Positions 27-13,775 of a stretch of 64,000 bases of DNA are shown here, piece after piece. The stretch is from Bacilli bacterium. Lineage in GTDB: Bacteria; Bacillota_I; Bacilli_A; RF39; UBA660. The stretch lies in the NCBI GenBank assembly GCA_017553685.1, contig JAFZKH010000003.1, forward strand, positions 1-64,000, in the 5' to 3' direction. The notes beneath the pieces are model-generated. The model ran no database searches. It was not told the DNA's origin and saw nothing but the letters and a program-made list of their open reading frames with translations. Position numbers and translations under genes: made by a program. Position 1 is the stretch's first letter. Every line of letters starts with the position of its first letter.

Positions 27-90
27 TTTTATCATTTTTATCATTTTTATTTACTTTTATGTTGACAAATTTATCATTTTATTTTATTAT
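27..90 (+). promoter_or_regulatory. Promoter and candidate operator repeats of the repressor gene
   Basis: A -35 box TTGACA lies at 62-67 and a -10 box TATTAT at 85-90 with a 17-bp spacer, directly ahead of the GGAGG ribosome site at 97-101. The sequence TTTATCATTTT recurs three times (about 28-38, 38-49 and 70-80), overlapping and preceding the promoter. Direct repeats of this kind over a repressor promoter are compatible with autoregulation. That role is an inference. Confidence 0.5.
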
Positions 91-109
91 GATATTGGAG
101 GTAGCAAAC

Positions 110-772
110 ATGAATAAAATTGAAATGAGAAAAGTATTAGCTAATAATCTTGTGGTATTATTAGACTATAAAAAAATATCAAGAAAGAATGTTGCTGATG
201 ATCTTAAACTATCTTATACAAAGGTATGTGATTGGACAAGAGCAAGAACTTATCCAAGTGAAATCGAGTTAGGAAAACTTGCTAATTATTTGAAAACTAC
301 TGTTGAGCAATTAACTGATGGAGATTCATTAATTAATGATAATGGTTTTGAACCTGAACAATCATCAAAAAAAGCCAAGATATCAGTAATAGATATTGGC
401 TCTGAAGATTGGATTATTCATCCTGTTGATTATGAATGGGTTTCTACTAAATATCTTACACCAGAAACAGGTTATTTAATGTTTGATGTTATAGATGATT
501 TAATGTCACCTAAGTATGATATCGGTGATACTGTATTAGTAGAATTTCTAAATAATAAATCTATTAAAGAAGACGGAGATTATTTAGTTAAATTAAAAGA
601 ATTTGATTCTTGGTTATTCATTCATATTTATGTAAAAAAAGATGGCTACTTAGTTGCACCACTTAATAACAACAATTCAAAATCAATCTTACCTAGATTT
701 TATACTAAGAAAGAATTCACAGAAAGTGCTACACAACCTCATAAAGCTATAAGAGTTTCTAAAAATATATAA
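110..772 (+). CDS. HTH/S24-fold repressor with degenerate peptidase site
   Basis: This 220-residue protein has the layout of a phage CI or LexA-type repressor. An N-terminal helix-turn-helix domain (about residues 8-72) is followed by a beta-rich S24-like C-terminal domain (about 105-215). The start at 110 is chosen because GGAGG lies 8 bases upstream; an in-frame ATG at 59 has no ribosome site. Where self-cleaving S24 members carry Gly-Asp-Ser-Met, this protein reads Asp-Asp-Leu-Met (129-132). The region that should hold the catalytic Lys reads Leu-Phe-Ile-His-Ile-Tyr. Self-cleavage therefore looks lost. It sits beside an integrase, so it probably represses the integrative element; the target is inferred. 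Confidence 0.75.
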   Translation: MNKIEMRKVLANNLVVLLDYKKISRKNVADDLKLSYTKVCDWTRARTYPSEIELGKLANYLKTTVEQLTDGDSLINDNGFEPEQSSKKAKISVIDIGSEDWIIHPVDYEWVSTKYLTPETGYLMFDVIDDLMSPKYDIGDTVLVEFLNNKSIKEDGDYLVKLKEFDSWLFIHIYVKKDGYLVAPLNNNNSKSILPRFYTKKEFTESATQPHKAIRVSKNI

Positions 773-954: not shown

Positions 955-2079
955 ATGGGTGTGTATAAAGACAAAAGGCCTACTAAAGATGGTAAGATTT
1001 GGTTTTTTAAGACTCAATATGAAGATATTGATGGTACTCATAAAACTAAAAAATCAGGTAGATATGCAACTAAAAAAGAAGCAGAAGATGCTGAGTTTGA
1101 ATTTAAATTAAAACTAAGAGAATATGAAAATACTAATAATGTAACTTTTGAAGAAATGATTAGGATGTTTATTGATTTTAGAAAGGATAAAGTTAAAGAA
1201 AATACTTTATATGGTTATAACAATAAATTACCCTATTTAAAATCGTTATATAAGGTTAAATTAAAAGACTTTAATTATCCTGTTTTTGAAAGATGGCATG
1301 ATGAAATAAATAGCACTCATCTTGCTACAAGAACTAAGAATGATATTTATAAGCTATTAAAGACTATTTTAAATTATGCTACTGCTTGTCATGAGTTTAA
1401 TTTTGCTAAGGTATATCCTAAAATGTATAACTTTAATGATCCTAATGAATTTCCTAAAGAACAATTATTCTTTACTTATGAAGAATTTAAACAATTTCTT
1501 TCTGTTGAAACTGATATTAAGTGGATTGGTATTTTTGAAATATTATATTATTGTGGATTAAGACGTGGTGAACTTAGAGGATTACAATGGAAAGACATTA
1601 ATTTTAAGGATAGAACTTTAAGCATAACAAAGCAAATTAATGACCGCTGTGGTTCCATCAAAAACTGGCGATTCTCGGTTCCTAAAACCAAAAGTAGTAT
1701 AAGAACCTTAAAGATGCCACAAGTCCTTACAAATGACCTTAAAATGATGAAATGCGAGGCAGAAAAGATATCTGGATTCAATGATAATTTCTTTGTAGCT
1801 GGAGATATATTTCCTGTATGTAGTAATACTCTAACCCATCATAAAAATATTAACTGCAAACTTGCTAATGTTAAACAGATTCGATTGCATGATTTCAGGC
1901 ACTCATGTGCATCTCTTTTGGTTAATAAAGGAGCCAATGTGCAAGTTGTTGCAAAATACCTAGGACATACAAAAGTTGAAGAAACACTAAAAACTTATTC
2001 GCACCTTTTTACAAGCACTTTAGATGAAGTGGTTGCCGTAATAGATAATTTAGATAACAATAAAACCGACGAATTCTAA
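955..2079 (+). CDS. int: Tyrosine recombinase / integrase
   Basis: A 374-residue site-specific recombinase of the Tn916/phage integrase type that would excise and insert the surrounding element. The N-terminus (1-60) resembles the beta-rich arm-binding domain, 65-150 is the SAM-like core-binding domain, and the catalytic domain spans about 170-370. Visible catalytic features are the first Arg in Gly-Leu-Arg-Arg-Gly-Glu, a Lys in the Pro-Lys-Thr-Lys segment, His-Asp-Phe-Arg-His, Leu-Gly-His and the Tyr nucleophile in Thr-Tyr-Ser-His. Length is normal for the family. It converges on the RelA/SpoT-domain gene, with a shared terminator. No att site could be assigned. Confidence 0.93.
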   Translation: MGVYKDKRPTKDGKIWFFKTQYEDIDGTHKTKKSGRYATKKEAEDAEFEFKLKLREYENTNNVTFEEMIRMFIDFRKDKVKENTLYGYNNKLPYLKSLYKVKLKDFNYPVFERWHDEINSTHLATRTKNDIYKLLKTILNYATACHEFNFAKVYPKMYNFNDPNEFPKEQLFFTYEEFKQFLSVETDIKWIGIFEILYYCGLRRGELRGLQWKDINFKDRTLSITKQINDRCGSIKNWRFSVPKTKSSIRTLKMPQVLTNDLKMMKCEAEKISGFNDNFFVAGDIFPVCSNTLTHHKNINCKLANVKQIRLHDFRHSCASLLVNKGANVQVVAKYLGHTKVEETLKTYSHLFTSTLDEVVAVIDNLDNNKTDEF

Positions 2080-2093
2080 TCATCGGTTTTTTT
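2062..2093. terminator. Bidirectional terminator between int and the RelA/SpoT gene
   Basis: AAAACCGA (2062-2069) pairs with TCGGTTTT (2083-2090), with A-runs to the left and T-runs to the right. It serves both convergent genes, whose 3' ends overlap by four bases. Confidence 0.8.
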
Positions 2094-4892
2094 AGTTTCG
2101 AGTTTGTATGTAGTTTCATCTTTAATTATACTCTTATCTCTTTTATTCTTTTCGATTTGATATAGTGTTTTAAATCTCTTAACTTCTTTATCTACAAACT
2201 CTTTTACTTTCTTATTCTTTGGCCTAAGAGATTTAAAGAATAAACTTTTGTCATTAAATGCGTTTGCAATACCATATTCACCAGATACAACACCGGTATT
2301 GAAAAGTAGACAATCTATTTCATTTAATATTTTATCACTTCCATCAACCTTAGATATAATAAATTCAAAAATTTTCCAGCATGATGTTGAAGCATCAAAT
2401 AATCTACATAAATCTATTACTTTAGTATAAGTTTCATAATTATCATTTTCGCTCAAATATTTTAATATATCACTACCCAATTCATCATTATATTCGCCTA
2501 TCAAGTAATGTATATAATTTGATATTTTATAGTAATCATATTCTTTTAAGATATCCATGCACAATGATAAGTTATTATATCTTTCTTCACTATAATTACT
2601 GCAATCAGTTAAATTAATGTGACTATACGAATTGTATAGATTAGCATTTGGATTGTCAGCAATCTTATTTCTAAGAAGTTTTCTTAAATCATCTGGATAT
2701 ATTTCAAATAAATCGTTTAAAAAATATTCATCTAATCTGTTAAATTCACTATATCTAAAATTAACAAGTAATATTTGTAGGTCATCATAACTATACTTCT
2801 CAATGATCTTTTTTTCTGCATGAGGATTATATAACAATTCTCCCATAATTCCTTTATTGTGATCATTATATTCTTTGACTTTATTTAAGAAATATTTTTT
2901 ATATTTTTCATTATTTACTAAATCGTTATTATTAACAATTAGTTTTAATATACTTAATATCAGTTTTTCGTTTTTATCTTTCTCTGCATATTTTATTATT
3001 CTATCTAATACTTTTAAATCTATATTCCCAGCTCTAAGCATAGCTTGAATAATTTTGTCTGCTTTTATCACATCATCAATTTCATACTTATAATTTTTAT
3101 CTTGTTTAACAATTCCAAGAAATACATATTCATTCCATTTAGTTTTAATTATTTCTTTTCCGTATTTTTTTAATGATCCGACATCAATTAAAAATCTTCC
3201 TGCATTATATATATTTGAATTACAAGTTTCTTCATTGTCCATTGTATTCAATATAGCAATTATTTCCTCAATGTTATCCTCTTTAAAATCTTTAGTATAT
3301 TTATCCAAATATAATTTTCTAAATTCTTCTTTTTCATTGTACTTAGCACCCGGTATTTCATCGATAGAAAAATTAAATATCATTGCATATAGTTTTTGCA
3401 CTTTATCTGCTTTTAATCTTTTATAAAATTTACTATCTTTTAGTTGCGTATTTTTCCAAACACATACAGATTTATATAATTCATTTTTACTAAAAATATC
3501 TATTTTATCATAATTATTATTAAAAAAATCGTATATTGGATTACAGTCAAATATATCAGTATTTCTTTCTAAATCATAGTTAATATTAATCAATGCACGC
3601 AAAGCTTCATTTGAATGATTATTTAAGAATATATTTAATAATTCATCTATTGATCTATATATCTTTGTTTTATAATTATCATTAGGATTTGTCTTATTAC
3701 TTACAAAATTAATTTTATTCTTCTCAACTTCTTCACAATAATTATAGTTTATATCACAAAAGTATTCAGCAAGTTTTATCTTAATATATTCGTCTGCTTC
3801 TTTATCAATTATTAAAGAATATGCCATCTCATGGACATTATAATATCCATATCCTCTGCTAGAATCAGCTTTGTCCGAAACCATTAAATTTTCTAAAAAT
3901 TTATCAAATTTGTCTACAATATTATTATTAACAGATATTCCATATAAAATTGAAATTATATTTTTAAAGTCATCAAGCCATAAATATTTATAATATTGTA
4001 AGAATTCTAATAATTTACCATATTTATATTCATATGTATCATAATTCAAAAAGTTAGCAGTTTCTACAGGTAATTCACTAAACTTTTTCACTATGGAATA
4101 TATTATTCCTGAATCATAAATATTTTTATACTTTTCTTCATTTTCATTAACCAACGGAATGATTTCAACCATTTTATTAATAATATTTTCCAATTCATTT
4201 AAAGAATTTACTTCTTGAAGCTTCTTATTAAAATCTTTATCTAATAATAATTCTATGTTTTTGGCACCTGTTTTGATGCTATCTACACGTCTGTTAATAA
4301 ATTCTAAACTGGCTACAACATTTAATATATCTTTTCTTGATTTTTCAAATATCTTCTTTATTCTTTCATACTCTTTGCTATCCTTTGATTGTAATTCATC
4401 TACATCCTTATAAATTATATTATGCCCAAATTCATTCATTGCATGAGACAATACTGTTGTCAATTGAATTTCACATAACATTCCCTTAAACTTATTTACA
4501 TCTTTTTTTAGTGAAATTGTGATATTAGTTCCATCATATTTCATAATATCTTCAGATGGTCTATATGATTCAATATTAAATTCATCGTAAATAATATCAT
4601 TAAATCTTTTTAAATCTTCTTCATTATAAAAAATAACTCTTACACCACTAAGATCATTTAAATTCTTAATATTACCACAAACCCCATTAATTATTTTTTC
4701 CGTCAATTTATTTTTCAGTGAATCATAAGATTTAACACGACTATTTAATGATTGGTATTTAATTCCATTTTCAATAAGAATATTTTTTACTTTATTCTCA
4801 ATATAAGATGTAAACTCAACATATGATAATTGAGATGATAAATATTCTTTTAACATTTGATCTTTAACCTTTTTTAATTTCTCAAACTCCAT
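2076..4892 (-). CDS. Giant RelA/SpoT nucleotidyltransferase-domain protein
   Basis: This is a 938-residue protein with an N-terminal RelA/SpoT nucleotidyltransferase domain (about residues 30-200) and a long helical C-terminal part (about 210-930) I do not recognise. In the domain one sees Asp-Leu-Ser-Gly-Val-Arg-Val-Ile and Cys-Glu-Ile-Gln-Leu-Thr-Thr, which match the conserved Asp and Glu strands of (p)ppGpp synthetases. The usual Gly-Tyr-Arg-Ser-Ile-His segment is replaced by Tyr-Asp-Gly-Thr-Asn-Ile-Thr. No HD hydrolase, TGS or ACT domain is present. Its place beside an integrase and its solo synthetase domain recall toxic small alarmone synthetases used in anti-phage defence. Function is inferred. 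Start follows GGAGG with 8-base spacing. Confidence 0.7.
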   Translation of the reverse strand: MEFEKLKKVKDQMLKEYLSSQLSYVEFTSYIENKVKNILIENGIKYQSLNSRVKSYDSLKNKLTEKIINGVCGNIKNLNDLSGVRVIFYNEEDLKRFNDIIYDEFNIESYRPSEDIMKYDGTNITISLKKDVNKFKGMLCEIQLTTVLSHAMNEFGHNIIYKDVDELQSKDSKEYERIKKIFEKSRKDILNVVASLEFINRRVDSIKTGAKNIELLLDKDFNKKLQEVNSLNELENIINKMVEIIPLVNENEEKYKNIYDSGIIYSIVKKFSELPVETANFLNYDTYEYKYGKLLEFLQYYKYLWLDDFKNIISILYGISVNNNIVDKFDKFLENLMVSDKADSSRGYGYYNVHEMAYSLIIDKEADEYIKIKLAEYFCDINYNYCEEVEKNKINFVSNKTNPNDNYKTKIYRSIDELLNIFLNNHSNEALRALININYDLERNTDIFDCNPIYDFFNNNYDKIDIFSKNELYKSVCVWKNTQLKDSKFYKRLKADKVQKLYAMIFNFSIDEIPGAKYNEKEEFRKLYLDKYTKDFKEDNIEEIIAILNTMDNEETCNSNIYNAGRFLIDVGSLKKYGKEIIKTKWNEYVFLGIVKQDKNYKYEIDDVIKADKIIQAMLRAGNIDLKVLDRIIKYAEKDKNEKLILSILKLIVNNNDLVNNEKYKKYFLNKVKEYNDHNKGIMGELLYNPHAEKKIIEKYSYDDLQILLVNFRYSEFNRLDEYFLNDLFEIYPDDLRKLLRNKIADNPNANLYNSYSHINLTDCSNYSEERYNNLSLCMDILKEYDYYKISNYIHYLIGEYNDELGSDILKYLSENDNYETYTKVIDLCRLFDASTSCWKIFEFIISKVDGSDKILNEIDCLLFNTGVVSGEYGIANAFNDKSLFFKSLRPKNKKVKEFVDKEVKRFKTLYQIEKNKRDKSIIKDETTYKLETKKTDD

Positions 4893-4914
4893 ATATTATC
4901 CTCCTTATAAAAGA

Positions 4915-4960
4915 AAAATTCTATACTTTAAATTGTATAGAACTTTATGATTACATTATA
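4915..4960 (-). promoter_or_regulatory. Promoter and 8-bp inverted repeat upstream of the RelA/SpoT gene
   Basis: The repeat TTCTATAC (4919-4926) pairs with GTATAGAA (4935-4942). Read on the minus strand it is followed by five T and then the GGAGG of the RelA/SpoT gene. A -10-like TATAAT sits just upstream at 4955-4960. The element may be an operator or an attenuator hairpin in the leader. Confidence 0.45.
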
Positions 4961-5404
4961 CTACTTTATCTCTTAAATGTCTGCAATAATCACGCAGTTT
5001 TAGCAAAACTTGTTCCCAAGTTGTTCCCAAGAATTCTTTTCAATCTTCTATATGCTTGCAAACCCTTATAAACATTGGCTTAAATCAATTCTATTTTTTC
5101 ATTGGATGTGGCAGGGGGAAGAGAGCAATATAAAAAGATGGATTTTCCATCTTTGTTTGTTTATATCATATTTGCAAAAATTGATTTTTGTATAACAAAA
5201 ATGATTTTTTTGTAGGTGAATTTCTTCTAAAAATAAATATTTGTTATATTTATTTATAAAAAATGAATTTTTGAATTAAAAATAATCAAAAATTGTTTTT
5301 TTGTATATATAAAATCAAATTTTAATCCTTATATATTATTTAATATTTTAGAAATCTTTTTAAAATAATTTCTAAAATATTAAATATAAACAAAAAAAGA
5401 TAGA
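4961..5404. other. AT-rich intergenic stretch with short repeats
   Basis: No convincing gene is seen. The stretch holds a tandem 11-bp repeat TTGTTCCCAAG (5010-5020 and 5021-5031), a 9-bp hairpin with loop TTT at 5134-5154 resembling a plus-strand terminator, several poly-A/poly-T runs of the form AAAATTGATTTTT, and copy 1 of the dispersed palindromic repeat at its right end. It may contain the right end of the integrative element, but no matching att repeat was found near position 1. Confidence 0.5.
5321..5390. repeat. Dispersed palindromic repeat, copy 1
   Basis: An 18-bp perfect inverted repeat, ATTTAATATTTTAGAAAT (5338-5355) with its complement at 5368-5385, encloses a 12-base loop. The flanks, including TTAATCCTTATATATT to the left, are also shared with copy 2. 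The same sequence recurs at 8661-8722 and 12,862-12,930. It lies just beyond the stop codon of the minus-strand hydrolase gene. Confidence 0.9.
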
Positions 5405-6013
5405 TTATTCTATCTTTTTATATAAATAATCAAATGGTAATTGTTTAAAATCATAAGTATCTTTTGAAAAATGATGATCTTGTCCATTAATAACAAAGTA
5501 TTTTACTTTGTTATTATTAATTAAGTCTAATAAACCAACATAATTAATAGATTGATCTTCACTACCATAGATTAATACTATTTGTTCTTTATTAAAGTTT
5601 TCTAAACCTTCTTTTGTTTTATGATAGTTATACATTAATGGAGCATTAATAAGTAATAATCTTTTTATTTTAGGATACTTAGTTCCAAACCAGACTCCGA
5701 TTAAGGCTCCTGCTGAATGTCCCATATAATATATTTCATAGTCTTTTATATTATTTTCTTTAGTATAGTTATCTATTACTTCCATAGCATCCTCTAAAGG
5801 ATTTATTCCATCAAATGGATTAGAAGAACATATAACAGTAGATCCATATTGTTTATTTATATTTAATGCTATTTGTAAGTATTTATTATTATAACCATAT
5901 AAAGAACCATTTTGACCTGCTTTTATAAAAAATATATTAGAATTACCTTTTATTATTCCATAATCTATTATTTCTTTATTAAATTTTCTATGTAATATAA
6001 TATCAAAATCCAT
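5405..6013 (-). CDS. Small alpha/beta hydrolase
   Basis: This 202-residue protein belongs to the alpha/beta-hydrolase fold. The nucleophile elbow Gly-His-Ser-Ala-Gly is at 98-102, with a candidate acid Asp153 (Gly-Ser-Glu-Asp-Gln-Ser) and a candidate His180/181 (Gln-Asp-His-His-Phe), giving a complete triad. No signal peptide or membrane segment is visible, so it should be cytoplasmic. The substrate is unknown; serine esterase or lipase-like activity is the family expectation. The start at 6013 is chosen because AGGTGAT precedes ATG by five bases; the GTG nine bases upstream is part of that ribosome site. It stands alone between a dispersed repeat and the structured-RNA region. Confidence 0.8.
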   Translation of the reverse strand: MDFDIILHRKFNKEIIDYGIIKGNSNIFFIKAGQNGSLYGYNNKYLQIALNINKQYGSTVICSSNPFDGINPLEDAMEVIDNYTKENNIKDYEIYYMGHSAGALIGVWFGTKYPKIKRLLLINAPLMYNYHKTKEGLENFNKEQIVLIYGSEDQSINYVGLLDLINNNKVKYFVINGQDHHFSKDTYDFKQLPFDYLYKKIE

Positions 6014-6119: not shown

Positions 6120-6374
6120 TTAAAGATAGTTGGGACTTCTTTCAGTTTGTGTTTGACGTAATTCTGCTATTTCAAGCAAGCAATCCATAATCATTTGAGT
6201 ATCAATATTTTCTTTATTTGCAATAATATAGTCTATCATCTTGTTTTGAAGATCTTCTCTTTTTTTCAAAACTAACATAATTCCAATGGTAGTAGTTTCA
6301 TCTACATTTAATACTGCTAATAATCTTACTAAATATATCTCTGTTTGAGTTAAAACATTATCTTTATTATCCAT
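6120..6374 (-). CDS. Small helical protein of the RNA-associated family (member a)
   Basis: An 84-residue unknown protein, predicted largely helical, with no signal peptide. Its middle part (about residues 28-74) aligns by eye with the three upstream small ORFs: a block of the form I-x-I-M-L-x-L-K, then a run of hydrophobic-charged heptads, and a final I-x-x-L-x-L-x-I-A-x-L. It carries an N-terminal extension and a polar C-terminal tail that the others lack. AGGAG lies seven bases before ATG. It is the last of four tandem genes embedded in the structured-RNA region. Function unknown. Confidence 0.65.
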   Translation of the reverse strand: MDNKDNVLTQTEIYLVRLLAVLNVDETTTIGIMLVLKKREDLQNKMIDYIIANKENIDTQMIMDCLLEIAELRQTQTERSPNYL

Positions 6375-6410
6375 ATATATCTCCTAATCAAATCATAAAA
6401 GAAGTATTAT

Positions 6411-6617
6411 CTACTCCTCTGCTATTGTTCTCCTTATTTTCAATAAGTTGTCTATTCTCATCAATTCTTTGTTGTCTTGATTCTTCTTCAAGTAATTTAA
6501 CAGTTTCTTTACTTGATATTCTGTTTTCAATGGATTCAAAATTGAAATTATTGTTTCTTTATTCATATTTGGTATCTTCAATAAGTAATCCATTATCTTA
6601 TTTCTCAATTCTTTCAC
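6411..6617 (-). CDS. Small helical protein of the RNA-associated family (member b)
   Basis: A 68-residue basic helical protein of unknown function. It begins at GTG with GGAAGAG eight bases upstream, and that ribosome site overlaps the end of the preceding small gene, suggesting translational coupling. The segment Ile-Ile-Ser-Ile-Leu-x-x-Leu-Lys-Thr matches the corresponding block in its neighbours, but it is the most diverged of the four. No catalytic motif is seen. Confidence 0.6.
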   Translation of the reverse strand: MKELRNKIMDYLLKIPNMNKETIISILNPLKTEYQVKKLLNYLKKNQDNKELMRIDNLLKIRRTIAEE

Positions 6618-6622
6618 TTACA

Positions 6623-6823
6623 TTACTCTTCCAAATGACATATTTTTAATGCTTTTGTTATTATTTTATCAGTATTTAAATCATTATCTTTATTTTCTAT
6701 CAGCCACTCAATCATTTCTATCTTTTGTTTATCAGTTCTCAATAACATTATTGTTCCCCTGATATCATCCTTTTCTTTCATAAAATTAAGTAATAGGCCT
6801 GCTAAAATTTTTTTCAAATTCAT
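6623..6823 (-). CDS. Small helical protein of the RNA-associated family (member c)
   Basis: A 66-residue protein of unknown function starting at ATG after GGAGG. It is about 60 percent identical by eye to the 67-residue protein at 7017-7220: both contain a Met-Glu-Trp-like Ile-Glu-Met-Ile-Glu-Trp block, a Leu-Arg-Thr motif and the same ending His-Leu-Glu-Glu. The sequence is charged and helical with no membrane segment. A hairpin with a T-run lies just upstream of its ribosome site and may attenuate it. Confidence 0.7.
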   Translation of the reverse strand: MNLKKILAGLLLNFMKEKDDIRGTIMLLRTDKQKIEMIEWLIENKDNDLNTDKIITKALKICHLEE

Positions 6824-6826
6824 CAA

Positions 6827-7016
6827 TATTACCTCCGAATTTTTTAAAAAGCAGGCCTAATAGTACATCGATAAATCTTCACTACATCCTGCTTTATAAA
6901 TCTTGGTACATCTATTTATAATAGAATTTTTACAGATTTTCATCCAACCAAATTCTAATAATAGTGGTCACTGGTGAGAATTGCCAGCAAGCACCTTTAT
7001 ATATTATCTAATATAT
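6827..7016 (-). ncRNA. Internal segment of the large structured RNA
   Basis: Between two of the small ORFs lie 190 bases packed with complementary arms. AAAGCAGG (6848-6855) pairs with CCTGCTTT (6888-6895). An 8-bp pair TAGAATTT/AAATTCTA (about 6922-6957) follows. A copy of the CAC-stem-loop-GCA module lies at 6969-6989. The first hairpin is followed on the minus strand by T5 and the GGAGG of the next ORF. I read it as part of the same RNA as 7228-8045, interrupted by coding sequence. Confidence 0.55.
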
Positions 7017-7220
7017 CTATTCCTCTAAATGTGCTATCTTCAATGCTTGAGTTATTATCATATCTGTTGTTAACTCAGTTTTTTTATAGTTTTTTTCTAT
7101 CCACTCTATCATTTCTATTTGTTGTTTCTCTGTTCTCAAAGTTGATAGAATCCCTATTATATTGTCCTTTTCTTTTATGAAGTGCATCAAAATACCCTTC
7201 AAGATTTCTTTTGTTTCCAT
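7017..7220 (-). CDS. Small helical protein of the RNA-associated family (member d)
   Basis: A 67-residue charged, helical protein of unknown function, first of the four small ORFs in transcription order. AGAGG lies six bases before ATG. It contains Leu-Arg-Thr-Glu-Lys-Gln-Gln followed by Ile-Glu-Met-Ile-Glu-Trp, nearly the same as in the gene at 6623-6823. It follows directly on the long noncoding structured segment, so it would be translated from the same transcript. Confidence 0.7.
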   Translation of the reverse strand: METKEILKGILMHFIKEKDNIIGILSTLRTEKQQIEMIEWIEKNYKKTELTTDMIITQALKIAHLEE

Positions 7221-8634: not shown

Positions 8635-8660
8635 AAATCTAGCAATATGCTAGATTTTTT
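8633..8660 (+). terminator. Terminator of the HTH gene
   Basis: AAATCTAGC (8635-8643) pairs with GCTAGATTT (8649-8657) and is followed by further T. Confidence 0.85.
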
Positions 8661-8722
8661 AATCCTTATATATTATTTAATATTTTAGAAATCTTTTTAA
8701 AATAATTTCTAAAATATTAAAT
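8661..8722. repeat. Dispersed palindromic repeat, copy 2
   Basis: The 18-bp arms are at 8675-8692 and 8705-8722, and the 12-base loop is identical to copy 1. It sits beyond the stop of the minus-strand ADP-ribosylglycohydrolase gene, the same relation copies 1 and 3 have to their neighbours. Confidence 0.9.
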
Positions 8723-8744
8723 CTAATAAAAAAGAATATATCAT

Positions 8745-9668
8745 CTACTTATTAATAGTTTCTTCAAATTTATTAGCTAATTCTATTAAATAATCTTTTC
8801 TTTGTAATTTATTAATCCATTTTTCAGGTATATCTTTGTATATTATACCTGCCATAGATCCTGTTATGGCTCCTATTGTATCTGTATCTCCTCCTAGATT
8901 AATAGCTCCTATAACAGCTTCTACATAATTACTTGCTTTTAATAATGTCCATAAAGAAGCTTCTAGAGTATCTACTACATATCCAGATGATTTAATATCA
9001 TCTATTTCTAAAGTATTTAAATCTTCTTTTAATATTCTTTTATATAAATCTATAGATTCTTTTGAAAAAGATGAATAATCCTCATTTTTAATAGTATTAT
9101 AGGCCTCTAATTTATCTAATCCTTTAAATAGATTAATAACATATAATACATATATATAACAGCCTAATATAGATATCTCATTTCTATGTGTTAAAGAAGA
9201 TATATTCTTAGTTAATTCTAATATATCTTTTTTATTTAGATCTTTTTTATAACAATAATATGCTACTGGTAATATTCTCATTAAAGAACCATTACCATTA
9301 GATAGAAAGCCATCTATACCTGATTCTAATGCAGGAGTACCTAATTCTATATAATTTCTTATAGCTGCTAAACAAGTTCTACCTACATCAAAAGTATAGT
9401 TATTAGCAGTAAACTTAGAATCATTTATCCAATCTCCAAAGTTTACCATTATATCATCATAGTCCCATATACCTTTATTAATAAATGAGTCCATAGTAGC
9501 TACTTCCATTGATGTATCATCAGACCATGTTCCAGCAGGACCAGCATAACTCTTTTTTAATGTAGTAATTGGAGTATCCATTAAATTAACTCTATCTACA
9601 AATTCTACAGGAACACCCATTGCATCTCCAATAGCATGTCCTATTACTGCAGATACATATTTATCCAT
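8745..9668 (-). CDS. ADP-ribosylglycohydrolase (DraG family)
   Basis: This 307-residue enzyme of the DraG/ARH family hydrolyses the bond between ADP-ribose and an acceptor, reversing ADP-ribosylation. Family marks are Gly-His-Ala-Ile-Gly-Asp-Ala-Met-Gly near the N-terminus, Ser-Asp-Asp-Thr-Ser-Met (metal-binding Asp pair), Asn-Gly-Ser-Leu-Met-Arg, and Gly-Gly-Asp-Thr-Asp-Thr with Gly-Ala near the C-terminus. All metal ligands look intact. The start is the ATG after AGGTGAT. It lies 30 bases downstream of a 530-residue unknown protein on the same strand, so the two may form an operon. No ADP-ribosyltransferase was recognised nearby. Confidence 0.92.
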   Translation of the reverse strand: MDKYVSAVIGHAIGDAMGVPVEFVDRVNLMDTPITTLKKSYAGPAGTWSDDTSMEVATMDSFINKGIWDYDDIMVNFGDWINDSKFTANNYTFDVGRTCLAAIRNYIELGTPALESGIDGFLSNGNGSLMRILPVAYYCYKKDLNKKDILELTKNISSLTHRNEISILGCYIYVLYVINLFKGLDKLEAYNTIKNEDYSSFSKESIDLYKRILKEDLNTLEIDDIKSSGYVVDTLEASLWTLLKASNYVEAVIGAINLGGDTDTIGAITGSMAGIIYKDIPEKWINKLQRKDYLIELANKFEETINK

Positions 9669-9706
9669 ATATATCACCTATAAATATAATATCATATACT
9701 CCCTTA

Positions 9707-11299
9707 TTATAGTTTTTTTATTTCTATAAATCTAGAAAATACAACAGCATGATATAATCCGTTTTCTATATAAACATTTATGGTCTCAGCATTCTTAAGT
9801 ATAACTTGTTGTTTTTCAAAAGTAATATTCTGATCAAAAATGGTTATATTATCTACTTCATCTATTCTATCTTTTTTAGAACCAATTGAATAGTCTTTTA
9901 TTAATTCATTTGGGACAAGTATATCGACATTAACATCTCTCTTAATTACTGTTGGTTTACCTTTTACAAGAGCATAAGCTATTTCATATGTAGGTAATTT
10001 TAAGTCAAATTCTTCAGGATCAAACTTGAATGTTTTATTTGTTATTCTTTGTATTTCTGATATTTTATTCATAATATTTAGACTATTATTTATTTTAATA
10101 TACTCATTTTCATCAATGTTTAACCTTCCATCTAGTTTTTTATCCATAAATACGCCCTTATTTGGAGTATTAATCAAAGTTATATGAGTACTATTATCCT
10201 GCATTAGCAAATTTAATTTATATAGTTCTTTTAATATATCAACATTAGATTCTTCTTTCTTCTTAATCCCCAAAGACATTTTAAACTCTACTCGTCCATT
10301 TTCAGAATCCTTACAATTAAATAATAATCTTATAAATAACCAATTATCATCATCTATATTATTGTATTCTAATATGTCTCCATTAATGCTTTTTTCTTTT
10401 AATAAAAGATTATCAAAACAAAGTAAAAAGTGTTTGTTATCTATGCTTAAATTCATAAGTAATTCTTGCTTTTTGTTTTTAGAAGGACCAATAAAATATC
10501 TATGTTTCATATAATTAAAAAACTTATCATTATAATCATCTATATAGCTTTCAACACTATCTGGATATACTTCTATCCATTTATTTAACATGTTAGCCTT
10601 ATAAATACTCCTCACAAATTTATCAGCATCTTTTTTATTCTTAAACCTATATTTAAAACTTTGCTTATGATTAATATAAGCATTTATATTTTTTGCATAC
10701 AGATTGGGACAAATTATACTATTAAGTCTATCAATTTTATATTCAAAATCATCTTTTAAATAAGGTGGTAATAGATCATTTAATCTATCATCTCCTTTGG
10801 ATAGTTCATCATTATTACAATTTAATACATTCATAAACTCTTCATATGTAGAATTTATAGGTAAAGAATCAAATGAAATTCTTCTCATCTTAGCTTGGGA
10901 AGAAAGTCTTTCTTTTTTATTTAAAGCAATTAATTCTAATAATGTATAAAAATATTCAACAACATCATAACTGTCTTCAAAATCATTATCTATTACAGCT
11001 CCTTTTTCAATTAGGGCATTTTTAAAAGAAATCAATTTATCATCTTCATCAAAAATCAAATCAAAGCATCTAGCAAGATTCTCTTTATCCATGTTAGATA
11101 ATACTTTTCTTGCATTCTTAGCAAATGATAGTTTACCATTCATATATCTATTGACAGTACTCGCATCAACGCTTTGAATAAATGAATCTTTATTTAATAT
11201 AACAGAATTGCTAATAATATCTTTAAAGAATATTTCTTTATTTTCATATCTTTTATCAGTAAAAGTATATAGTACACTCATAAAATCACTAAACTCCAT
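9707..11299 (-). CDS. Unknown 530-residue protein, candidate partner of DraG
   Basis: I do not recognise a family for this protein. The N-terminal 75 residues include Asp-Ala-Ser-Thr-Val-Asn-Arg-Tyr-Met-Asn-Gly-Lys, which reads like a helix-turn-helix or a winged segment. The remainder is charged with alternating helices and strands and has no signal peptide or membrane span. The start at 11,299 is used because GGAGGTG is seven bases upstream. It is divergent from the DUF4417-toxin operon and directly precedes the ADP-ribosylglycohydrolase gene. A role in phage defence or ADP-ribosyl signalling is a guess from context. Confidence 0.6.
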   Translation of the reverse strand: MEFSDFMSVLYTFTDKRYENKEIFFKDIISNSVILNKDSFIQSVDASTVNRYMNGKLSFAKNARKVLSNMDKENLARCFDLIFDEDDKLISFKNALIEKGAVIDNDFEDSYDVVEYFYTLLELIALNKKERLSSQAKMRRISFDSLPINSTYEEFMNVLNCNNDELSKGDDRLNDLLPPYLKDDFEYKIDRLNSIICPNLYAKNINAYINHKQSFKYRFKNKKDADKFVRSIYKANMLNKWIEVYPDSVESYIDDYNDKFFNYMKHRYFIGPSKNKKQELLMNLSIDNKHFLLCFDNLLLKEKSINGDILEYNNIDDDNWLFIRLLFNCKDSENGRVEFKMSLGIKKKEESNVDILKELYKLNLLMQDNSTHITLINTPNKGVFMDKKLDGRLNIDENEYIKINNSLNIMNKISEIQRITNKTFKFDPEEFDLKLPTYEIAYALVKGKPTVIKRDVNVDILVPNELIKDYSIGSKKDRIDEVDNITIFDQNITFEKQQVILKNAETINVYIENGLYHAVVFSRFIEIKKL

Positions 11300-11409
11300 A
11301 TGCATCACCTCCCAAATGGAAATTTTTGGAACATTTCTTATTGTTTCTTCTTGTATTATGTAGTTGTAGTTAGAAAGAAAAGGTCCCGTCTTCTAGTTAC
11401 AATTTCCTA

Positions 11410-11428
11410 TTATAACGCAATGTTATAA
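11410..11428. promoter_or_regulatory. Inverted repeat in the divergent promoter region
   Basis: TTATAAC (11,410-11,416) and GTTATAA (11,422-11,428) form a 7-bp inverted repeat with a 5-base spacer. It sits 30 bases before the DUF4417 gene in the spacer it shares with the divergent 530-residue gene, and is a plausible operator. Confidence 0.4.
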
Positions 11429-11460
11429 AAAGTCAAATTAGCTAAAAAGGAGGTTTGAAA

Positions 11461-12141
11461 ATGACTAAGGAAACAAGAAAAGGATGTAAGGATGTATTTA
11501 ATGCGTTTATGGTTAAAGATTGTGAATTTGAAGGGAAATATGATATTCCTATTTGTATAACTCAAAACAATGAGGTACCTACTAAACTAATAGCATATGA
11601 CTTAACTATGTCATCCACAGATTATGATGCATATGTACATTTTTATATTGATGATCAAAAATTTGATGGTCCTCAAGGAATATGGAATAAACCAGAAAAA
11701 GCACTAGAGAGACTAAAAAAATTTAAAGGTGTTATAATACCAGATTTTTCTACCTATATAGATTTTCCAGTAGCACTAAAAATTTATAATACATATAGAA
11801 TGAGAGCATTCGGTTGTTATTTATTAAAGAATGGTATAAATGTAATACATAATGTACGATGGTCAGAACCAGATTCATATGAATACTGTTTTTCTGGTAT
11901 ACCAAAACATAGCATAATATCAATTGGAACTATAGGTTGTATTAAAGAAAAAATCAATTGGGATTTCTATCAACAAGGATTAGATGAAATGATTAAAAGG
12001 CTCGAACCAAGAATTCTACTTGTATATGGAAATACTCCAGATAAATTTTTTAAAAAATATAAAGAAAGTGGTTTAACTATATACCAATATGATAGTCAAA
12101 CAAGTAAGGCTTTCAAAAAGGAGAAAAACAATGAAACCTAA
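11461..12141 (+). CDS. DUF4417 domain protein
   Basis: A 226-residue protein matching the DUF4417 pattern common on mobile elements. It has a Gly-Ile-Pro-Lys-x-Ser-Ile-x-x-Ile-Gly-Thr-x-Gly-Cys-Ile block near residue 155-170, then a Gly-Leu-Asp-Glu-Met helix and a Leu-Val-Tyr-Gly strand. Biochemical activity is unknown. AAGGAGG sits seven bases before ATG, better than the TTG two codons upstream. Its last 11 bases overlap the next gene, so it is the first cistron of a three-gene operon with the toxin-domain and immunity-like genes. Confidence 0.75.
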   Translation: MTKETRKGCKDVFNAFMVKDCEFEGKYDIPICITQNNEVPTKLIAYDLTMSSTDYDAYVHFYIDDQKFDGPQGIWNKPEKALERLKKFKGVIIPDFSTYIDFPVALKIYNTYRMRAFGCYLLKNGINVIHNVRWSEPDSYEYCFSGIPKHSIISIGTIGCIKEKINWDFYQQGLDEMIKRLEPRILLVYGNTPDKFFKKYKESGLTIYQYDSQTSKAFKKEKNNET

Positions 12142-12843: not shown

Positions 12844-12861
12844 TATTATATTAATATTAAA

Positions 12862-12930
12862 CTTTAATCATTATATATCATTTAATATTTTAGAAATCTT
12901 TTTAAAATAATTTCTAAAATATTAAATATA
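12862..12930. repeat. Dispersed palindromic repeat, copy 3
   Basis: Arms at 12,880-12,897 and 12,910-12,927 match copies 1 and 2 perfectly, as does the 12-base loop. Flanking bases differ slightly (TTAATCATTATATATC to the left). It lies between the toxin-immunity operon and the 3' end of the convergent Bro-N gene. Confidence 0.9.
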
Positions 12931-12947
12931 AACAAAAATAAGATAGA

Positions 12948-13775
12948 TTACTCTATCTTTTTATTTTCTTTAGAAGTTATAACTGTTTTATTTAATTTAC
13001 TTTCTAAATCATCTTTAGCTACTTTAGCAGTATTACCTCCCATTTTAGCTATTACTTTATTTTCTTCTAAACCAAAGGGTTTTAATTCTTTTGCTAGTTC
13101 TTTAGTAGCTTCTTCTCCTAGGTCAGAAAGGATTACTTCTATACGAGACATATTATCTCTTAGAGACTCTTTTTTAAGGCCTTTATAGGCCTTTAATTCT
13201 TTAGAAGTCATTCCTGTCCATTCTTTATAGATTTCATTTGTTAATATAGCATATTCTTTATTAGAATGAACTCCTCCTTCATTCCAGAGGTCTGTTAATT
13301 CTTTTCTAACTTGAATACCATCTACTCTTTTACTAATCCAGTCTTCATCATAACCTTTAGTTCTATAATAATCTATATTTCTTTGGATACCTAATGATGG
13401 ATCTATTATTTCATCTATTCTTTCTTTTCCTAAACTAGCAAGCCATAATTTAAATGGTTCTGCTTTAGGACTAGGTACGGATTCAATAAGTCTAAAGATA
13501 CCTTCCATATTAAGTGTATCAGTAGAATAATACTTTCCATCCTTCTTTGACTTAAGTTTCAGTACCCGACAATTTGTCGGGATCTCACTTTTTTCCTCCT
13601 TTATCATTCTTCTTTTTAATGTTGTCCAATAATCGCCTGGATCTTTAGATTCAACTAAAGCATCTATTACATCTACTACACTAAAATAGTAATCTTCTTT
13701 TTCTTCATCCCAAATAGTTCTAATGGGCTTATTATTAAATATTTTATTAACTAGGTACATTTTATCTAAGTTCAT
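12948..13775 (-). CDS. Bro-N / DinD-like protein
   Basis: A 275-residue protein with an N-terminal Bro-N domain (about residues 10-115): Trp-Asp-Glu-Glu then Tyr-Phe-Ser-Val-Val-Asp-Val-Ile and Pro-Ser-Pro-Lys-Ala-Glu-Pro-Phe-Lys-x-Trp-Leu. The C-terminal part resembles DNA-damage-inducible protein D, with Arg-Lys-Glu-Leu-Thr-Asp-x-Trp and the Asn-Glu-Ile-Tyr-x-x-Trp-Thr-Gly segment. Such proteins are DNA-binding antirepressors or SOS-linked factors on mobile elements. AAGGAA precedes ATG. The upstream region is the palindrome cluster, so its promoter must lie within or beyond those hairpins. Confidence 0.82.
   Translation of the reverse strand: MNLDKMYLVNKIFNNKPIRTIWDEEKEDYYFSVVDVIDALVESKDPGDYWTTLKRRMIKEEKSEIPTNCRVLKLKSKKDGKYYSTDTLNMEGIFRLIESVPSPKAEPFKLWLASLGKERIDEIIDPSLGIQRNIDYYRTKGYDEDWISKRVDGIQVRKELTDLWNEGGVHSNKEYAILTNEIYKEWTGMTSKELKAYKGLKKESLRDNMSRIEVILSDLGEEATKELAKELKPFGLEENKVIAKMGGNTAKVAKDDLESKLNKTVITSKENKKIE

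Follow-up and report, generated by a model that had tools for sequence, protein, structure and literature searches.

What does a lone RelA/SpoT synthetase domain do when it is joined to a long protein segment of no known family and encoded next to an integrase? The question is raised by a 938-residue protein encoded near the start of a 64,000-nucleotide stretch of DNA (contig JAFZKH010000003.1 of the assembly GCA_017553685.1, from a Bacilli bacterium of the gut), hereinafter designated the window. We propose, with a probability of about 0.62, that this protein, mobile and encoded by a single gene, works by abortive infection: a HEAT arm would restrain a pyrophosphokinase resembling the toxic small alarmone synthetases (SAS; toxic members, toxSAS) until a phage cue binds. 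This reading is drawn from properties computed here, namely the gene and its domain anatomy, an intact ATP-donor site next to an altered acceptor site, purifying selection, a fusion of single origin, a C-terminal module shared among swapped partners, a non-housekeeping distribution, mobility, and homologues that lie near defence genes.

A sequence-only reading had placed a frame with a lone RelA/SpoT domain at positions 2076–4892. The coordinates stand, and the strand is corrected to minus; the plus strand of this interval has many stops. A strong ribosome-binding site (RBS; AAGGAGG) lies immediately 5’ of the ATG and is retained in the homologue L007, from a Tenericutes metagenome-assembled genome. 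L007 is 72% identical along the full length, and the ratio of nonsynonymous to synonymous substitution (dN/dS, or omega) between the two copies is 0.15 across the gene, which together rule out a chance open reading frame (ORF). For the enzyme domain, omega is 0.09. These values point to purifying selection, and both copies therefore look functional.

The N-terminal domain belongs to the RelA/SpoT homologue (RSH) superfamily. Pfam RelA_SpoT matches residues 51–163 (E 9.7e-13; 48.8 bits against a gathering score of 27) and is the only family to reach its cut-off among Pfam, NCBIfam and PADLOC. Structure prediction and search place a SAS fold near RelP and RelQ at the N terminus. Specifically, RelQ and RelP align to residues ~11–208 of the AlphaFold2 (AF2) model (Z about 14, root-mean-square deviation (RMSD) 4.2–4.7, ~175 residues), and CapRel aligns with a Z of 11.3 and an RMSD of 3.1 over 144 residues, its chains aligning within model residues 7–194. 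The donor-site residues R52, K54, S58, K62, D80, G83, R85, E141 and Q143 are all present, including D80 and E141, the Asp and Glu already recognized as conserved from the sequence. They match, in the same order and with near-identical spacing, the residues of FaRel2 that hold ATP and Mg (R64, K66, S70, K74, D90, G93, R95, E145 and Q147; PMC11782079). All eight family members have R52, K54, D80, G83, R85, E141 and Q143 unchanged, while S58 is replaced by Glu in two of the eight and K62 by Arg in one. FaRel2 R77 corresponds to E65 in the window protein.

The Gly-Tyr-Arg-Ser (GYRS) segment, already reported as altered, reads KYDG (residues 118–121), and the next His is N123, so that GYRSxH becomes KYDGTN. 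All eight family members have x-[YF]-x-[GAS] at this position and Thr or Gln in place of the EIQ-x-RT Arg; the RelP and RelQ chains compared retain GYRS and IRT. Because the FaRel2-type ATP residues are kept and both GYRS and the EIQ-x-RT Arg are altered, the ATP-donor side is, judged by these motifs, intact and the acceptor side changed. tRNA-targeting toxSAS have a reduced positive patch at the acceptor site (PMC11782079), and because of this link the predicted acceptor is likelier to be tRNA than (pp)pApp or (p)ppGpp.

The same architecture and defence role could also be combined with another product, toxic alarmones ((pp)pApp or (p)ppGpp) instead of modified tRNA. FaRel and Tas1 are precedents for this (PMC11782079), the SAS fold is closest to those of the (p)ppGpp synthetases RelP and RelQ, and the acceptor-stacking Tyr/Phe is kept (Y119). 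However, with the GYRS Arg lost in the window protein and several relatives, and the EIQIRT Arg lost in all eight, the acceptor-phosphate site would be weakened, and we consider alarmone production an unlikely though serious alternative.

The C-terminal ~730 residues match no family in the three libraries above cut-off and are wholly helical in the AF2 model, consistent with the first description of this region. Comparison by hhalign of the window and L007 C-termini with plasmid proteins of Sphingobium and Rhizobium and with PIN-linked proteins gave E-values of 8.4e-8 (419 columns) and 1.6e-9 (631 columns). Ten control profiles, eight with shuffled columns and two reversed, all gave E-values of at least 0.2, which rules out helical composition alone as the source of the likeness. 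The window protein thus has profile homology to this scaffold family along its C-terminus. A C-terminal motif, TGVV-x-GE-x-G, is near-invariant in the 12 aligned scaffolds, with T, G, G and G fixed and most other positions nearly so. The family model, that of the L014 scaffold, is an all-helical solenoid (predicted local distance difference test (pLDDT) 83; predicted template modelling score (pTM) 0.64), and its best likenesses among the PDB matches listed are HEAT/ARM proteins, e.g. CAND1 and importins. Since the Z scores of 11–14 come with large RMSD, the likeness indicates a common arrangement and not kinship. A BFVD fold search returned no match at E <= 0.001.

The module is found with at least four partners: RelA domains, PIN_12 nucleases, a 280-aa protein and a STAND-like NTPase. 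The RelA fusions are the window protein, L005, L006, L007, L013, L015, L017 and L019, the last cut by a contig end, with a remaining tail that matches the scaffold at 3e-16. Their eight RelA domains form one clade (support 100/99), which argues against independent fusions, although long branches urge caution. Short RelA proteins on Klebsiella, Bacteroides and Limnohabitans plasmids were rejected as members, being without scaffold, and became outgroups. The Rhizobium homologue (L006, 6653–10585) has an additional C-terminal poly-gamma-glutamate hydrolase domain (PF05908, 9e-45).

At four loci (L008, L009, L014 and L016) a PIN_12 gene lies directly upstream of a gene for a ~800-aa scaffold; hosts of this pair include Pseudanabaena and Legionella adelaidensis. 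At L018 the gene upstream of the scaffold encodes the 280-aa protein (5036–5878). Over its last ~95 residues this protein aligns with the C-terminal residues of the PIN proteins (hhalign 3.7e-11, against control values of 0.05 or worse). This shared segment suggests a common C-terminal adaptor that would dock effectors on the scaffold. The N-terminal domain of the 280-aa protein contains a motif, GDHKCDGY...VFQCYGP, that is nuclease-like by eye; a phmmer search with this protein matched no known fold. In the Aulosira plasmid protein P0011, the module (E 6e-26) is preceded by an AAA/STAND-like NTPase and by a weak match to EAD10, the AAA_16/nSTAND matches falling below cut-off. A module common to PIN, STAND and other partners is as would be expected of a sensor or regulator, which supports the sensing role first suggested for the C-terminus from the sequence.

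The window genome carries a second RelA_SpoT gene, a 725-aa frame that is the expected housekeeping Rel. Among 291 genomes from its taxonomic family the window protein was found in one, and among 395 Bacilli genomes one has the C-terminal module; in both cases this is the window's own genome. The separate Rel-type gene and the rarity of the module rule out a housekeeping alarmone synthetase; a housekeeping context was looked for and none was found. With the window protein as the sole query, viral contigs, phages and genomes yielded little, and a phylum search (query A2) found short SAS proteins only.

DNA homology between the window and L007 spans 2089–4920, namely the gene and its RBS, and the flanks are unrelated. 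Consistent with the integrase module already noted, the ORF stop overlaps a convergent tyrosine integrase gene by 4 bases, and a convergent integrase lies immediately downstream in the same arrangement at L013 and L017. Because the gene and not its flanks is shared with L007, and because integrases adjoin the L013 and L017 homologues, the gene appears to be mobile. The window begins at the contig start, which hides the element's left end, and a search for direct repeats gave no convincing att sites, that end lying beyond the contig.

Several homologues lie among defence genes. The neighbours of L007, restriction–modification genes among them, are a C5 methylase, a NOV_C-domain protein, Fic, a GmrSD-domain protein, and Wadjet JetA (3.5e-127) and JetB (3e-104). 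A Dsr2 gene (1e-123) lies ~2 kb from L006, AbiEii (5e-112) ~2 kb downstream of L017, past the integrase, and an Mrr nuclease adjoins L018. The proposal that the gene is defence cargo is thus supported by the context of the homologues, which are found on plasmids and IMG/VR contigs and among defence genes, and not by that of the window copy, which has no recognized defence gene beside it.

Toxin–antitoxin (TA) genes also lie near certain homologues. This, together with a toxin-like domain encoded by a single gene beside an integrase, would fit a fused toxin–antitoxin that stabilizes the integrative element and has at most a secondary part in phage defence. However, a ~700-residue solenoid that is common to STAND-like and PIN proteins far exceeds a typical neutralizing domain, and L007 lies in a defence island, which makes this explanation improbable. 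The altered GYRS segment could also mark a degenerate or regulatory RelA domain that senses metabolic state by nucleotide binding and is no toxin, but the complete ATP/Mg site, purifying selection strongest in the RelA domain, and the fact that in other members PIN nucleases or STAND modules take the place of that domain, which suggests an effector position, leave it very little probability.

We infer the autoinhibition and the trigger of the proposed abortive-infection protein by analogy with DSR2 and CapRel, each of which pairs an effector with a sensor, and the acceptor from the motifs. In the uninfected cell, the ~700-residue HEAT/ARM solenoid would keep the N-terminal enzyme off. Binding of a phage-derived or phage-altered host molecule to the solenoid would release the enzyme, and the released toxSAS-like domain would pyrophosphorylate its acceptor, most likely the tRNA 3’ end, with ATP as donor. 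The outcome would be a growth stop and abortive infection.

Several points weigh against this proposal. Confidence in the AF2 model of the window protein is moderate (pLDDT 71, pTM 0.43), the scaffold of this protein is only ~11–15% identical to distant members, and the acceptor specificity is deduced from motifs alone. The bare surroundings of the window copy count likewise. Finally, the relatives come mostly from collections of plasmids and viral contigs, in which mobile DNA is over-represented (L007 comes from a genome collection), so the mobile context is partly built into the sampled collections.

The window protein would function like CapRel or DSR2 and is a member of neither. With the toxSAS FaRel2, PhRel2 and CapRel it appears to share the SAS fold, the ATP-donor residues and, likely, growth arrest as the outcome. 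CapRel combines toxin and sensor in one chain, where a fused domain serves both to inhibit the toxin and to detect the phage capsid, giving phage protection (PMC9712102). However, CapRel has ~373 residues and a small pseudo-zinc-finger C-terminus, whereas the window protein has a ~730-aa HEAT-like helical module that is homologous to other scaffolds and used with other partners. It also differs from the long RSH proteins Rel, RelA and SpoT, as had been noted for the first two, since Pfam finds RelA_SpoT with no preceding hydrolase and no later TGS or ACT domain.

DSR2 binds phage proteins through its HEAT and C-terminal regions (PMC11263360). It would resemble the window protein in having an N-terminal toxic enzyme and a long helical/HEAT C-terminal region, and the homologue P0002 has a Dsr2 gene nearby on its plasmid. 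However, the DSR2 effector is a SIR2 NADase, whereas the window protein has a RelA domain and no SIR2 match, and any likeness of the C-termini would be one of architecture, not of demonstrated sequence relation. DSR2 is absent among the PDB matches listed for the models (generic HEAT/ARM likeness only), which excludes nothing. P0011 links the module to STAND/NLR-like systems (Avs, bNACHT), but Pfam finds no NTPase domain in the window protein. The PADLOC OloA model of Olokun has weak matches in two of the 12 scaffolds (best E 3e-7), while the window protein and the partners have no OloA or OloB match. The PADLOC candidate PDC-S33, a RelA-domain protein of ~350 aa, has a model that matches the RelA domains of five family members; the window protein is unmatched at E<=0.1, and the 349-position model contains no HEAT module. 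In a mainly open-access literature search for alarmone synthetases with HEAT repeats only polymorphic-toxin work surfaced, and an earlier description elsewhere is possible.

The features of the locus are collected in Table 1.

Table 1. Features of the RelA-HEAT gene and its immediate neighbours in the window.
Feature	Position	Strand	Evidence
938-aa RelA/SpoT-HEAT fusion gene	2076..4892	minus	ORF and RBS; full-length homologue at 72% identity; dN/dS 0.15
SAS-like pyrophosphokinase (synthetase) domain, aa 1-163	4404..4892	minus	Pfam RelA_SpoT, aa 51-163; AF2 model compared with RelP/RelQ; ATP-site residues intact
Helical linker, aa 164-230	4203..4403	minus	AF2 secondary structure, helix 172-216; fast-evolving
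HEAT/ARM-like helical solenoid, aa 231-938, proposed sensor/regulator	2079..4202	minus	hhalign to other scaffolds; family model resembling HEAT/ARM proteins
Signature of the family close to the C-terminus, TGVVSGEYGIA (aa 866-876)	2265..2297	minus	12 aligned scaffolds
Tyrosine integrase carrying an Arm DNA-binding domain; converges on the RelA-HEAT gene	955..2079	plus	Pfam Phage_integrase, E 1.1e-22
Predicted helix-turn-helix/S24-like repressor	59..772	plus	Weak Pfam matches, below cut-off

Further along the window, three cargo genes on the minus strand each have an 87-nt AT-rich palindromic repeat (86–94% identical) at the 3’ end (5310–5396, 8647–8733 and 12852–12938), with two more copies on a different contig, C9; a repeated terminator or a cassette-linked hairpin are candidate readings. 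On the minus strand at 6120–7220 lies a series of 67–84-aa proteins, at least two of which are clearly alike (6623–6826 and 7017–7220). The interval 8745–12141 encodes an ADP-ribosylglycohydrolase (PF03747, 3e-64) beside a family-less 533-aa protein, and this cargo region also has a DUF4417 gene. The protein encoded at 12948–13775 resembles Bro-N antirepressors and is a strong match (1e-108) to the PADLOC candidate PDC-S13. Elsewhere, a 378-aa RelA-domain protein (L002, 436–1572) is encoded by the largest gene of a 3508-bp Klebsiella ColRNAI plasmid, and an 8-kb Vibrio filamentous phage (Tubulavirales) carries a RelA-domain gene (L012, 6571–7581) with a possible role in superinfection exclusion.

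We lean slightly towards a cross-phylum, previously unnamed immunity class, in which one HEAT-like sensor module takes at least four plugged-in partners that shut the cell down in different ways. With the same slight preference, RelA and the STAND NTPase would be joined to the module by fusion, and the PIN RNase or another enzyme, encoded by the upstream gene, through a small C-terminal adaptor. The RelA-scaffold clade is no local oddity, because it spans Bacilli, Pseudomonadota plasmids and IMG/VR contigs. If the proposal is true, it would add a second, structurally distinct way of controlling a RelA-type toxin within a single polypeptide, by a large solenoid as opposed to the zinc finger of CapRel, and would define a sensor module largely missed by defence libraries, the window protein having no PADLOC or NCBIfam match. 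Exchange of RelA, PIN and STAND partners on a fixed sensor could show whether sensing is separable from killing, and phage escape mutants could expose what the module recognizes. The proteins that carry it are probably a family of virus-triggered self-shutdown devices missed by current defence catalogues.
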